Source: Balneola sp. (GTDB lineage: Bacteria; Bacteroidota; Rhodothermia; Balneolales; Balneolaceae). From it: 64,000 bases of DNA. The stretch's first letter is position 1. Every line of letters starts with the position of its first letter. Shown here piece after piece: positions 13,567 to 54,655 of the stretch. Both the position numbers and the translations under genes were made by a program. The notes beneath the pieces were generated by a model. The model saw nothing but the letters and a program-made list of their open reading frames with translations. It did no database searches and was not told the DNA's origin. Location of the stretch: contig NZMW01000001.1 of assembly GCA_002694685.1 (NCBI GenBank), positions 372,001 through 436,000 of the forward strand, given 5' to 3'.

Positions 13567-14046
13567 TTATCGTTCTCTTTTTTCCTGGAAGAATGCTTTC
13601 ATGAGATGCTCACAATCAGCTTCCATTACTCCCTGAATAACCGACACTTTATGATTGAGTTTATTATTTGCAACGATATTAAACACACTGCCGCAACCAC
13701 CGGCTGCAGCATCAGTAGCTCCAAATACAACTGTTCCCAGTTTGCTCCAAACACTTGCGCCTGCACACATAGGGCAGGGTTCAAGCGTTACATAGAGTGT
13801 ACAATCACTAAGGTATTTTTCATTTAGTGTTTCACATGCAGCCGATATAGCCAGCATCTCAGCATGGGCAGTAGGATCATTTAAGCGTTGAACCTGATTG
13901 TAGCCCTTTCCAATTATTTGATTATCCTGAACGACTATGGCACCCACCGGAACTTCACCTTCATCATAAGCCTGTTCAGCGAGCATAAAAGCCCGAGCCA
14001 TAAATCGCTGATGTTGTTGCCAAACCGGAAGATCAATTTTATTCAT
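13567..14046 (-). CDS. tadA: tRNA-specific adenosine deaminase
   Basis: Zinc-dependent deaminase that converts A34 of tRNA-Arg(ACG) to inosine. It has 159 residues. The zinc/catalytic motif is complete: H61-A-E63 within DPTAHAEM and C91-x2-C94 in PCPMCAG. The length and the family N-terminal FMARAFMLAEQAYDEGEVPVGAIVV support TadA rather than a cytosine or guanine deaminase. Confidence 0.92.
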   Translation of the reverse strand: MNKIDLPVWQQHQRFMARAFMLAEQAYDEGEVPVGAIVVQDNQIIGKGYNQVQRLNDPTAHAEMLAISAACETLNEKYLSDCTLYVTLEPCPMCAGASVWSKLGTVVFGATDAAAGGCGSVFNIVANNKLNHKVSVIQGVMEADCEHLMKAFFQEKRER

Positions 14047-14051
14047 AGTAC

Positions 14052-14083
14052 TTGATTGCTATCGATGGTTTTAACTACCTTGG
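14052..14083 (+). promoter_or_regulatory. Candidate promoter, Bacteroidota type, ancestral to apt
   Basis: TTG at 14052-14054 and TACCTTGG at 14076-14083 are separated by 21 bases, close to the TTTG / TAnnTTTG pattern of Bacteroidota-type sigma factor promoters (one mismatch in the second box). It would drive transcription starting about 14090, just before the ATG at 14105. If the gene at 14105 is an insertion, this promoter originally served apt. Confidence 0.45.
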
Positions 14084-14103
14084 CGCGAACTTAATCCAAT
14101 ATT

Positions 14104-14124
14104 GATGAAAAAAGTAGAGCAAAG
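14104..14124 (+). repeat. Direct repeat, copy 1 (apt start region)
   Basis: G followed by ATGAAAAAAGTAGAGCAAAG. The same 21 bases occur at 15349-15369, where they are the native first codons of apt. Here they form the start codon and first residues (MKKVEQS) of an unrelated secreted protein. Confidence 0.95.
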
Positions 14125-15331
14125 TAGGTTTATATTTCTATTTATTTTGACAATTTCAGTTTTTTGTTTCTTAGTATTTATTCCGTTGAAGGCTCAAAAT
14201 ATACAATTAAGCCTAGTATCTAAACCTGTACAGAGCGATGTTTTTATACCTAACTGGGAGGAGAACAGAGACTTGTTTGGAGTTCTTGCAGCAGGAATAG
14301 AAATAAAAACTGAACTTCTTGAATTAAATTTTAAGTCAGATAAAAATGTCGTTAGTACATTCAAAAAAGATTATGGATACTTAGTTCTGGTACCTGTCAA
14401 TGCAAGTTATCTAGAAGTAAACGGAGAATATATTATACCTGAAAAATATGTATTCAAAAATTTAGGCATAGAACTTCAAAGTGGTAAATCATGGACACTA
14501 TTCATTGAGGATATGTTTGCGTCAAAAAATAATTTTGATGAAGAGGAAAATAAGAGTGGATTCAATTCTTATTTAAAATTAAATACAAACCAAGATTCAC
14601 TAGAATTCACTTTGGAAAGAGGAAAAACAAAGGTTAAGAATTGGATTGGCGAGGGTATTTTTCAATTAGAACCTGGTCTTTATGAACTTTATGCTGAAGG
14701 CTTAAATCGAAAGACATATAATCAAAAAATTTCTATAAAAAGTAATGATACACTTGCCCTAACAGTTAACCCTGAAAAATACCTTTTAGATTTCTCTAGT
14801 GGTACTGGAAAAATGAAAATTTACTCTAAAAAATATTCTGATACAGAATTTGCAATTCGCCATCAAGGGAATCTAGTTGCAAAATGGTTTGATAGAGAAA
14901 ATGATATTAGATTACCTGTTGGACTGTATAACATTAAAGTTCAATCCTCATCTTACTTAACCTTCAATATGAATGTTTACCTAAATAAAGGAGAAAATAG
15001 AAGTATTGAGGTGCCTTCTCTTCAAAATTTTAAATACTCAGATAAGGTTTCTTTAGTTTGGCTTAATCCTTATTCAACAAACGTTCGCACAAACAGTAAT
15101 CATTTTAAAATACTAGCTTGTTTAGTTTCAGAGGAATTTGATGACAAACAAGTAAAGCTTGACGTTAATGGGAACGAAAGAACAACTAATTTTTATAGAC
15201 CCATGGGTATTGAAAAATGCAACTATATCATTGAGGAGAACTTAGATCTTTTAGTCGGTGAAAATAAAGTTTATATAAAGTCTGAAGGGAGGGTAATAGG
15301 TTCTAAATTAAGTATTTTCAGAACTAACTAG
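14105..15331 (+). CDS. Secreted protein with PEGA-like repeats, probable insertion
   Basis: 408 residues from ATG 14105 (a TTG precedes it by 3 bases). The N-terminus is a signal peptide: charged MKKVEQSR, hydrophobic FIFLFILTISVFCFLVFIPL, then KAQN. The body shows at least two PEGA-like units, e.g. EPGLYELYAEGLNRKTYNQK and LPVGLYNIKVQSSSYLTFNM, beta-rich modules common in exported proteins. The coding sequence is visibly richer in A and T than its neighbours. Its first 20 bases are identical to those of apt, and the gene lies between apt and the promoter-like site at 14052, pointing to recent insertion. Function unknown; possibly a cell-surface or adhesion-related protein. Confidence 0.75.
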   Translation: MKKVEQSRFIFLFILTISVFCFLVFIPLKAQNIQLSLVSKPVQSDVFIPNWEENRDLFGVLAAGIEIKTELLELNFKSDKNVVSTFKKDYGYLVLVPVNASYLEVNGEYIIPEKYVFKNLGIELQSGKSWTLFIEDMFASKNNFDEEENKSGFNSYLKLNTNQDSLEFTLERGKTKVKNWIGEGIFQLEPGLYELYAEGLNRKTYNQKISIKSNDTLALTVNPEKYLLDFSSGTGKMKIYSKKYSDTEFAIRHQGNLVAKWFDRENDIRLPVGLYNIKVQSSSYLTFNMNVYLNKGENRSIEVPSLQNFKYSDKVSLVWLNPYSTNVRTNSNHFKILACLVSEEFDDKQVKLDVNGNERTTNFYRPMGIEKCNYIIEENLDLLVGENKVYIKSEGRVIGSKLSIFRTN

Positions 15332-15348
15332 TTACAATAAATTTAAAG

Positions 15349-15369
15349 GATGAAAAAAGTAGAGCAAAG
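15349..15369 (+). repeat. Direct repeat, copy 2 (native apt start)
   Basis: Second copy of the 21-base repeat at 14104-14124; spacing start to start is 1245 bases. In apt it encodes MKKVEQS, which leads naturally into the family N-terminal helix. Confidence 0.95.
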
Positions 15370-15892
15370 CATAATAGATTTCATTTCGGAAACTATACGA
15401 ACCGTACCTGATTTTCCAAAAGAGGGAATTCAGTTTAAAGATATCACAACATTATTACAGGATAAACAGGCGCTCGAACTTACTTCCTATATGCTCGAAA
15501 AACCTTTTATAGGTGAACATGTTGATTTTGTGGTTGGGCTGGAGTCACGAGGTTTCTTATTTGGAACTAATCTGGCTCAGGATCTTCATGCCGGCTTTGT
15601 GCCCGTACGTAAACCGGGCAAGCTTCCCGCAAAATCAATTTCAGAAACATATGCATTAGAGTATGGTGAAGATAGCATTGAAATGCATGAGGATGCTATT
15701 TTTGAAGGAGCTAAAGTAATTATTCATGACGACCTGATTGCAACAGGAGGTTCAGCTGCTGCTGCCTCAAAATTAGTTCAAAGACTTGGCGGTGAAGTAA
15801 TAGGGTATTCCTTCATTATTGAACTTTCTTTTCTTAATGGCCGCGAAAAACTTATCCCAAATGTTCCGGTTGAAAGTATTCTCATAGAATAG
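15350..15892 (+). CDS. apt: Adenine phosphoribosyltransferase
   Basis: Salvages adenine to AMP with PRPP. It has 180 residues. Family landmarks are TVPDFPKEGIQFKDITTLL (17-36), VVGLESRGFLFG (61-72) and the PRPP-binding loop VIIHDDLIATGG (123-134). The first seven residues are repeated at the start of the gene upstream, which probably displaced apt from its own promoter; the present leader between 15332 and 15349 is only 18 bases. Confidence 0.95.
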   Translation: MKKVEQSIIDFISETIRTVPDFPKEGIQFKDITTLLQDKQALELTSYMLEKPFIGEHVDFVVGLESRGFLFGTNLAQDLHAGFVPVRKPGKLPAKSISETYALEYGEDSIEMHEDAIFEGAKVIIHDDLIATGGSAAAASKLVQRLGGEVIGYSFIIELSFLNGREKLIPNVPVESILIE

Positions 15893-48210: not shown

Positions 48211-48279
48211 GTATGGAAATCTAAGATTTCCTAGGCGAGAGCTTATAAGTCATTGCTTCGCTGAAGACTTAAAAGAGCT
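48211..48279 (-). repeat. Composite palindromic repeat, copy A
   Basis: Two hairpins in a row: GGAAATC-TAA-GATTTCC (48215-48231), and AGCTTATAAGTC (48240-48251) pairing with GACTTAAAAGAGCT (48266-48279). It lies 20 bases after the antitoxin stop. The last 25 bases are identical to copy B at 49028-49052. Confidence 0.75.
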
Positions 48280-48299
48280 GGGGGGGCTAGCCTATCGGA

Positions 48300-48536
48300 T
48301 TATAGTTTGTCATATTCTTCAGGTTCCACATCAGGTACTTGATTCATTATATTTTCAAACCCCTGCTTGCTTCCCTTTTCTGCTCGTTCTTTAAGATAAT
48401 CTATGGTCAATAATGCCGACATTTTTTCGGATACCGCCAATGTGATGAACTGATTCATAGAAACACCTTCTTTTTTAGCCAGTTCTTTTATTTTTTTATG
48501 TAGTGATTCGGGTAATCGAACGCTTAATGTACTCAT
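48300..48536 (-). CDS. Ribbon-helix-helix antitoxin candidate
   Basis: 78 residues. The N-terminal TLSVRLPESLHKKIKELAKKEGVSMNQFITLAVSEKM is a ribbon-helix-helix DNA-binding pattern (beta strand SVRLP, two helices). The C-terminal half is charged and probably binds the toxin. It starts within the toxin stop (ATGA, 48533-48536). RHH antitoxins usually repress their own operon; a palindrome at 48961-48984 would be the operator. Confidence 0.85.
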   Translation of the reverse strand: MSTLSVRLPESLHKKIKELAKKEGVSMNQFITLAVSEKMSALLTIDYLKERAEKGSKQGFENIMNQVPDVEPEEYDKL

Positions 48537-48961
48537 GGTAACTCCTGTATGATTTGGAGAAATTCTTTTGCTGTCACCAACTCAATATTAAATTTATCAA
48601 TGCCTTGAAAATCAGCTTTGTTGTACGTTACAATGTAATTGCAATTAGCTCTAACCGCTAATTCCAGGATCATGTCATCTTCAGGATCCTTCAAAATTGG
48701 ACGCCATAAAAAATAGACTTCATGCCAGTTTCCAACCAGACACAAGTAATCTAAGAATTGGCCGATCTGAGACTCACTAAAGTTGAGTGTATCAAGCTTT
48801 CTAAGTAATACATCTTCATACTCAATAACGAGTGGAACCGACAAATTGATTTCAAATTTGGAAGAATCCAACAAAGAAAGCAATCTATATGAAGCCCCTC
48901 GCCTTGACCGAAGTGCTGAATAGATGATGTTTGTGTCTAATACAATTTGATGAATTGACAT
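48533..48961 (-). CDS. PIN-domain toxin (VapC-like, COG1569-type)
   Basis: 142 residues. PIN nuclease acidic residues are visible: D9 in IVLDTNIIYSAL, E47 in VIEYEDVL, D96 in DPEDDMILELA and D117 in TYNKADF. Probably a Mg-dependent endoribonuclease. It is the first gene of the pair, which is the reverse of the usual vapBC order. The start codon abuts a perfect palindrome. Confidence 0.85.
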   Translation of the reverse strand: MSIHQIVLDTNIIYSALRSRRGASYRLLSLLDSSKFEINLSVPLVIEYEDVLLRKLDTLNFSESQIGQFLDYLCLVGNWHEVYFLWRPILKDPEDDMILELAVRANCNYIVTYNKADFQGIDKFNIELVTAKEFLQIIQELP

Positions 48962-48984
48962 ATGGTATTATATATAATACCATA
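48961..48984 (-). promoter_or_regulatory. 24-bp perfect palindrome, operator candidate of the toxin-antitoxin pair
   Basis: TATGGTATTATA at 48961-48972 is followed without gap by its exact reverse complement to 48984. It begins on the first base of the toxin start codon and contains a TATA-rich core that could also be the promoter box. A dimeric RHH antitoxin binding here would block transcription initiation. Confidence 0.7.
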
Positions 48985-49024
48985 AAAAGTAACAAGTGAC
49001 GATTCACTTTTATATAGGCTAACC

Positions 49025-49052
49025 ACCGCTTCGCTGAAGACTTAAAAGAGCT
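49025..49052 (-). repeat. Composite palindromic repeat, copy B (partial)
   Basis: Contains the 25-base segment at 49028-49052 shared with copy A, ending GACTTAAAAGAGCT. The left arm is degenerate. It lies 28 bases after the stop of the 82-residue membrane protein gene and forms, with copy A, a pair flanking the toxin-antitoxin genes. Confidence 0.7.
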
Positions 49053-53411: not shown

Positions 53412-53474
53412 TTATCCTCCTATTTCCCGGGTTCTGCCTTAATGTAAGAAATAAGAAATTCTATTCACTCTAAT

Positions 53475-53540
53475 TCTTCCTATATGAGGCTTTCTGGACA
53501 AGAACTTTTAAGTCACCGCTTGGCTGAAGACTTAAAAGAG
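53475..53540 (-). repeat. Composite palindromic repeat, copy C
   Basis: CTTTTAAGTC (53505-53514) and GACTTAAAAG (53529-53538) are exact complements around a 14-base loop (ACCGCTTGGCTGAA). The stretch TCTAATTCTTCCTATATGAG before it is shared with copy D at about 54604. Confidence 0.75.
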
Positions 53541-53601
53541 ATTAGGTGGTTCACATAGATTAGCCCAAAGACTGAATGTATCTTCCCTAAAATTGGAAAA
53601 C

Positions 53602-53643
53602 AAAAAGAGTGAGGGAAAGAACGGTTCAAACTTCTCCCCTCAC
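53602..53643 (-). terminator. Intrinsic terminator of the DUF2892 gene
   Basis: GTGAGGG (53609-53615) pairs with CCCTCAC (53637-53643), with further pairing inside. On the minus strand the stem is followed by TCTTTTTGTTTT. It lies 28 bases after the stop at 53672. Confidence 0.75.
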
Positions 53644-53671
53644 ATATATCGATAAGCTTTTGATAGCTTTT

Positions 53672-53884
53672 TTAGTTGGTTTCTTTTACCGGACAAGTTT
53701 TGATGCCAAAGGGAGCGTAAAGTGGACAAAAACTTATCAAACTTGTTAGGAGAAATATTCCAGCCAAGGCTAACATAATGATACCTACTGTTCCAGAAAC
53801 TGTACCTGTGAAATATAACACTCCTGCTACAGCTGCAATGATTGTTCTGATTACTCGATCTGCTGTTCCCATATTCTTTTTCAT
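53672..53884 (-). CDS. DUF2892 (YgaP-type) inner-membrane protein
   Basis: 70 residues. The N-terminal MGTADRVIRTIIAAVAGVLYFTG and C-terminal FCPLYAPFGIKTCPVK are characteristic of DUF2892, which in YgaP is attached to a rhodanese. Two membrane helices; two Cys near the C-terminus. A Crp/Fnr regulator gene lies 79 bases upstream on the same strand, a common pairing in Bacteroidota. Confidence 0.85.
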   Translation of the reverse strand: MKKNMGTADRVIRTIIAAVAGVLYFTGTVSGTVGIIMLALAGIFLLTSLISFCPLYAPFGIKTCPVKETN

Positions 53885-53963
53885 AATTCTAAAGATTTAT
53901 TAGATTTAAAATTTATTGTGGCACTAATATGCGAACACTTTAGCTACTATTCAGTGACTGCAG

Positions 53964-54590
53964 TCACCACTCGTCAATAATTTTTATACCAACTGAATTT
54001 TGTTCCACTTTGCCTTCAGTTTTCAGCTTACTTAACACTCTCGTTACCACTTCACGAGCCGTGCCTAATTCATTTGCAATCTGGCTATGACTCATCCTGA
54101 TGGTTTTATCCTTGGTCAAAAGGGATTTCTTTTTGAGATGATCATAAACTCTCTTGTCCATATTGTCTACCAAAAGATGGCCGATGGTATTTAAAAGCTC
54201 TGTATATCTCAAATTAAACTGGTTGTAAAACAACTCGTTAAAATCCGGGTATTCTTTCAGCCACCCCGGTAAATATTGGACTGGTATTAAAAGGATTTTG
54301 GAGGCCTTTTCAGTAGTTGCAAATACTTGACTGGGGGTGTTTTTGAGAGCAGCATAAAAAGTCATAACACAACTTTGACTTGGCTCTATGTAGTACAACA
54401 GTAGCTCTTTCTCATTAAATCTTGAGTAAACCTTAACCAGTCCCTCAATGACTATTGGCAATACCTTTACATATTGTTCTTCCCTCAAAATTTCAGTGCC
54501 TTTTGGAAACTCTTTAACCGAAGACATTTCAAAAACTTCTTCCCGAAGTTCCGGTTTTAAAAATGAAAGAAAATTTTTATCGAACTCCAT
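53964..54590 (-). CDS. Crp/Fnr-family transcriptional regulator
   Basis: 208 residues. An N-terminal cyclic-nucleotide-binding-like beta barrel (about 15-125, EILREEQYVKVLPIVIEGLVKVY) is followed by the long dimer helix and a C-terminal winged helix with recognition helix in MSHSQIANELGTAREVVTRVLSKLK (about 165-190). There is no N-terminal Cys cluster, so not an FNR-type iron-sulfur sensor. Probably controls the DUF2892 gene and related redox functions. Confidence 0.9.
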   Translation of the reverse strand: MEFDKNFLSFLKPELREEVFEMSSVKEFPKGTEILREEQYVKVLPIVIEGLVKVYSRFNEKELLLYYIEPSQSCVMTFYAALKNTPSQVFATTEKASKILLIPVQYLPGWLKEYPDFNELFYNQFNLRYTELLNTIGHLLVDNMDKRVYDHLKKKSLLTKDKTIRMSHSQIANELGTAREVVTRVLSKLKTEGKVEQNSVGIKIIDEW

Positions 54591-54603
54591 TCTACCCTAT
54601 TAC

Positions 54604-54655
54604 TCTAATTCTTCCTATATGAGACTTCCTCAAAACTTTTAAGTCACCGTTTGGC
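54604..54655 (-). repeat. Composite palindromic repeat, copy D, overlapping a gene end
   Basis: CTTTTAAGTCACCG at 54636-54649 and TTGGCTGAAG at 54651-54660 correspond to the left arm and loop of copy C; the right arm is missing. The last codons and stop of the 54644 gene lie in the repeat. Confidence 0.7.

Follow-up and report, generated by a model that had tools for sequence, protein, structure and literature searches.

Why should two unrelated neighbouring genes begin with the same bases? In the window, by which we mean the whole 64,000-base stretch of Balneola sp. DNA that was analysed, the housekeeping gene apt is preceded by a 408-aa open reading frame, and both start within copies of one 21-base sequence, GATGAAAAAAGTAGAGCAAAG, repeated directly and exactly at a spacing of 1245 bases (Table 1). 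A sequence-only reading of the window had pointed to these identical starts and proposed that a gene for a secreted protein had been inserted exactly at the start codon of apt, taking over its promoter and start and leaving apt a second copy, in a unit that carries no recombinase.

A duplicated gene start

The repeat and the layout around it are as that reading described them. The left copy opens the 408-aa frame and the right copy opens apt, such that the ATG and first six-odd codons of the inserted gene are those of apt (in the list of reading frames the inserted gene starts at the in-frame TTG just upstream, at 14102, which adds one codon), and apt starts 18 bases past the stop of the inserted gene, inside the second copy. 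A single ORF and no recombinase lie within the unit. The inserted gene is AT-rich, with a GC content of 0.301 (0.222 at third codon positions, GC3) against 0.389 (0.271) for apt and 0.429 (0.312) for the divergent tadA-like gene beyond it. Between tadA and the left copy lies a promoter-like site of the form TTG-N21-TACCTTG, which fits the Bacteroidota-type consensus. Chance as the source of the repeat is made unlikely by a genome-wide count, in which the 20-mer that begins with the ATG is exact at two sites only, both of them copies of the repeat, with three more sites at three mismatches, and by a random draw of paired 300-base windows across this genome, in which 4 of 3000 pairs held an exact direct match of at least 15 bases and 1 of 3000 a match of at least 20.

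Table 1. Features of the tadA-apt region (positions in the window)
Feature	Position	Strand	Basis
tadA-like deaminase gene	13567..14046	-	Pfam MafB19-deam / dCMP_cyt_deam_1; adjoins apt, divergent, in 96/96 order genomes with an apt match, own included
Promoter-like site of apt, TTG-N21-TACCTTG, now 5' of the inserted gene	14052..14083	+	Pattern match; block kept 5' of apt in 8 of 9 congeners
Left copy of 21-base repeat (G before ATG plus first 20 bases of apt); start of inserted gene	14104..14124	+	Exact repeat; congener comparison
Inserted gene (408 aa); weakly PEGA-like, with a signal peptide judged probable by eye	14105..15331	+	ORF, Pfam, composition
DNA missing from nine congeners, 1224 bases	14125..15348	+	Congener and order-wide comparison
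Right copy of 21-base repeat; start of apt	15349..15369	+	Exact repeat; congener comparison
apt, adenine phosphoribosyltransferase-like, intact	15350..15892	+	Pfam Pribosyltran; 86% identity to nearest congener over whole length

The empty site in related genomes

A match to apt was found (E 0.001) in 35 of the 37 genomes that were first searched, its own included, one of the matches being weak. At all nine congener loci tadA adjoins apt, there is no match to the inserted protein, and the DNA corresponding to 14104-15348 is absent by sequence. A block reading CTTGGCGCGAAC or CTTTGGCGCGAAC lies 5' of apt in eight of the nine congeners, and in the window it lies 5' of the inserted gene instead. 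The first 20 bases of apt are identical in five of the nine, and the G that precedes them is present in seven.

The same arrangement extends across the order, where 96 of 128 genomes, the window genome among them, have an apt match (E 1e-30), the other 32 being uninformative on the apt site at this cut-off, and in all 96 tadA adjoins apt divergently. Measured between match ends, with an error of up to some tens of bases, the gap between the two genes is 43-699 bases (median 95) in the other 95 genomes and 1303 in the window genome; this uses 98 of 120 tadA rows, the 22 dropped rows coming from genomes without an apt match. No gene stands between tadA and apt in any of the other 95, as judged by distance and, for the 699-base gap of genome G032, by a reading-frame check that gave no convincing ORF.

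It follows from the congener and order-wide comparison that the left junction consists of apt's own first 20 bases behind their native promoter and leader, and that the right junction runs into native apt, which bears out the placing of the gene between promoter-like site and apt. The empty site in all nine congeners, together with the promoter/leader block in eight, marks this as a recent, lineage-specific insertion of one AT-rich gene. Comparison shows that this single gene went in after the 20th base of apt, in this Balneola lineage, and that apt's first 20-21 bases now flank it on both sides. The relatives did not show the shared gene order with a diverged repeat that an older arrangement would have left. 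The earlier reading had also led one to look for other genes at this site in other genomes; there were none (0 of 95), and apt as a hotspot for insertion is unsupported by that count.

The inserted protein and its relatives

The inserted protein falls just under the Pfam cut-off for PEGA (20.2 against 20.8 bits), and at E 0.01 it is matched in 8 of the 128 order genomes, its own included, all matches but itself being partial and weak. In a sister species, the N-terminal part of a 654-aa protein with a PEGA domain is its best match (31.5% over 130 residues), and by these matches the gene is a distant relative of the PEGA-domain proteins of the same bacteria. Its product is probably exported. 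The 654-aa protein also has a short stretch before its hydrophobic segment, and apt's seven codons therefore occupy the place expected for the gene's own first codons. Within the first 80 codons of the inserted ORF the only other in-frame starts are TTG at codons 15, 28 and 57, and a proper signal peptide therefore needs the duplicated ATG. A structure prediction from the one sequence gave a mean pLDDT of 33.6 and nothing usable.

A sample of the phylum gave matches in 6 of 394 genomes, own included, and the plasmids and phages searched held no relatives. Eleven stretches in genome_contigs and three in viral_contigs fit peptide patterns of the inserted protein, none of them encoding a relative. 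A degenerate search for the 20-mer returned eight genome stretches and three viral ones, only that of Balneola sp. EAC52 carrying it at apt, with a translation that is not apt-like in the other ten. Among the genomes searched there was no donor with the inserted gene beside apt, and the donor may be unsampled.

The nearest relatives of the inserted gene stand in an operon that is conserved in several Balneolaceae (L059, L057, L062, L064, L067) and that comprises genes for a PEGA protein, for an LPP20-like lipoprotein and for three exported proteins without a name. In the window genome the end of contig C6 (L058) is identical to about 5.3 kb of contig C13 (L057, G000:C13:163000-178000), including the PEGA-protein gene, which would be either a recent duplication or an assembly repeat.

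Other candidate single-gene insertions

The least biased test for similar events took the stretches of the window genome that are missing between the same two orthologues in a sister genome, G007. Among the 22 segments found, 20 have a longest exact boundary repeat of 7-10 bases, and two have 21 (apt) and 22 bases; several of the segments hold ordinary core genes, and some may reflect loss in G007 or an orthologue that was overlooked. Reciprocally, 15 of 16 segments of G007 have boundary repeats of 7-11 bases and one has 15 bases, the last being a tandem gene duplication.

A scan for direct repeats covered 1,654,516 bases of the window genome (G000) and 800,000 bases of three relatives. Under conditions on gene ends and cargo, with repeats having an internal palindrome and clusters of equal spacing excluded, it gave eight direct against three inverted pairs, and seven against none for units of one gene. 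The seven are apt, C10:116124/117626, C10:240548/241785, C1:552371/555954, a propeller unit in G007, C1:500945 and one in genome G039; the eighth direct pair flanks three genes, and its repeat is AT-rich. The pair at C1:500945 looks like the starts of paralogous genes and was set aside.

The clearest companion to apt is C10:116124/117626, where an exact 22-base repeat encloses a single 396-aa lipoprotein-like gene of 29% GC, whose product has a six-bladed propeller domain. The unit sits at the 3' end of a 185-aa gene, methyltransferase-like in appearance. This host gene is present in 9 of 10 genomes of the genus, own included; in the eight other congeners that have it, the 396-aa protein is without a match for 1.5 kb around it, and in the two closest of them 53-54 bases (between match ends) separate it from the next gene. 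The right copy continues into an apparently native gene end. We regard it as the same kind of event as at apt, at a 3' end, and the cargoes of the two clean cases carry PEGA-like and DUF5128 domains.

The remaining cases are less clean. At C10:240548/241785 (a transporter-like host, with a DUF3078 protein as cargo) and at C1:552371/555954 (a 95-aa host gene, with a 1132-aa protein that has a secretion tail), most of the differences between the paired gene-end copies are synonymous, which would fit DNA from a related species; for the transporter, the comparison rests on the correct gene end from three of six loci (L153, L154, L156), the other three being in the wrong frame. Both copies at C1:552371/555954 are without the last codons of relatives, and a history of more than one step is therefore indicated. 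G007 has a 340-aa propeller gene with a 29-base copy of one gene end on either side, and the window genome has at that position a 48% identical gene and no second copy, which points to an older history and counts against simple insertion there. The two loci (G007:C2:482086-483275, L201; G000:C10:98092-100548, L127 and L128) share their conserved flanking genes, 83% and 89% identical, around the propeller-type genes that are 48% alike, as if the position exchanged alleles.

Other repeats in the genome also enclose genes. At 48255-49052 of the window, two small genes that overlap and resemble a toxin-antitoxin pair stand between exact direct copies of a 25-base repeat; the palindromic family of this repeat is dispersed, and another copy lies at 53501-53540. 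At 53467-54623, exact direct copies of a 22-base sequence enclose genes for a 70-aa membrane-type protein and a Crp/Fnr-like regulator (both named by eye), and one and the same dispersed palindromic repeat comes after either copy. At G000:C10:204964-205777 (L133), two small toxin-antitoxin-like genes lie between two 55-base imperfect repeats at the 3' end of a 252-aa gene.

How the gene may have entered

The locus as a whole is, with good probability, best explained by the insertion of one gene at the start of apt, with duplication of the target, the joining being most likely illegitimate or by short homology. The inserted gene, as read from its position, appears to have captured the promoter and start of apt, as had been proposed, with expression presumably under their control. 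What once led into apt, its promoter, leader and start codon, now leads the inserted gene together with the first six-odd codons of apt, and apt stays whole through the second copy of its start. The two genes may be read from one transcript, and the first codons of apt may supply the n-region of the signal peptide in the new protein. How the DNA came is a more tentative matter: at a little under even odds, it arrived as a small fragment (e.g., by natural transformation) and was joined at a gene end by a crossover with short identity or none. Such joining would resemble homology-facilitated illegitimate recombination, or would be a single crossover of a small circle, giving target duplications of tens of bases, and these would sit at gene ends because only events that spare the neighbouring gene survive. 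A ComEC domain is present in the window genome, in support of putative natural transformation; Ku was not found there (the control, Bacillus subtilis, gave a match), and Ku-dependent end joining was rejected on that ground. No donor was seen to carry the gene beside apt, and tadA-apt is conserved throughout, which leaves little room for a one-sided homologous anchor.

Illegitimate or short-homology joining explains the variable gene-end copies at different targets, but the fusion, in frame and in register with the start that the gene lacks, and the duplications of 21 and 22 bases are tidier than it requires. These two features are better explained by site-specific recombination in trans, in which the circle of a one-gene cassette would carry a copy of the target gene end as its attachment site, an enzyme encoded elsewhere would act on it, the cassette's copy would restore the host gene, and the inserted gene's start would lie within the circle's site. 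Two other units, at 3' gene ends, also speak for it, since the flanks of their copies have diverged around 19-20 identical core bases, as if from the attachment sites of earlier hosts, and so do the 11 integrase domains of the genome. C10 has none of these domains, however, and on C1 some 259 kb separate apt from the closest of them; target and core differ in each case, the unit ends are unlike one another, and none of the other 95 genomes has an insert at apt. We consider recombination in trans possible but unlikely, and rank illegitimate or short-homology joining above it as more likely, short of proof. Slightly more doubtful is the broader idea of a Balneola that acquires genes one at a time, most of them coding for exported proteins, as cassettes that an enzyme in trans integrates at the ends of coding sequences. 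Duplication of 20-50 bases would let the host gene survive, and at a 5' end the new gene would gain promoter, leader and start in a single step.

That two clean cases of 21 and 22 bases occur in one genome could also suggest transposition by an enzyme that duplicates 21-22 bases of its target. We think this improbable: among the units of the window genome there are no shared ends and no inverted repeats beyond chance (the longest shared stretch, 7 bases, is equalled in 39 and 35 out of 300 random pairs), and no transposase lies inside the units by their ORFs and the Pfam matches of their cargo. Least credible of all, at a very small probability, is that the layout is an old one lost elsewhere, a chance repeat or an assembly error. 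The species is represented by one assembled genome, but an old arrangement would require losses in all 95 other order genomes and was rejected, and the exactness of the 21 bases speaks against chance; against an error of assembly, the best matches of the insert, weak as they are, lie in the same genus and family, fitting genuine DNA of such bacteria, and a like case stands on another contig.

Comparison with known systems

Islands that carry an integrase enter the 5' or 3' ends of genes and restore the gene, and are usually much larger. The apt unit is like them in its clean entry at a gene end, its short direct repeats, the rebuilding of the host gene by a second copy, and its new promoter context; it is unlike them in being 1.2 kb with one gene and no integrase inside or near. 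Kinship with such 5'-end elements, whose resemblance the sequence-only reading had noted, is no more than possible, given the distance of the nearest integrase domain and the place of the other likely cases, which are at the 3' ends of different genes. Repeated use of the apt site, as integrase-borne islands would show, was not found in the 95 other genomes. The apt unit has neither the terminal inverted repeats nor the transposase of a DNA transposon, and a scan for the attC site of an integron gene cassette behind the inserted gene, by short core motifs only, gave single scattered matches.

Homology-facilitated illegitimate recombination, with one homologous and one illegitimate junction, is described from laboratory transformation and conjugation (PMC3240628). 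It could carry in a small stretch of foreign DNA and would account for gene-end copies some tens of bases long; none of the genomes searched was a donor with the gene next to apt.

In the literature searched, mostly titles and the openings of abstracts, we found no description of start-codon capture by a single inserted gene. By this route a lone foreign gene without a promoter or mobility genes of its own could be expressed at once through a housekeeping promoter and start codon, while the host's housekeeping gene stays alive through the copied start; and a second event in the same genome, with a duplication of near-equal length, makes single-gene entry with target duplication testable within one genus.

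The nearest precedent is the insertion with long target duplication of Helicobacter pylori, in which restriction-modification genes enter the chromosome and the duplications are long and variable (Nobusato et al. 2000, as cited in PMC1643837, PMC4978471 and PMC3031569). As far as these citing accounts go, the likeness lies in the clean entry, with no obvious mobile element and a direct duplication of the target, and the empty site in relatives and the flanking direct duplication are both found at apt. The difference lies in the cargo and the length, restriction-modification genes and long variable duplications there as against a lone gene for a probable exported protein and 21 bases at apt (21 and 22 in the two clean cases), and, unlike the duplications in those accounts, the one at apt holds the start codon that the new gene would use.
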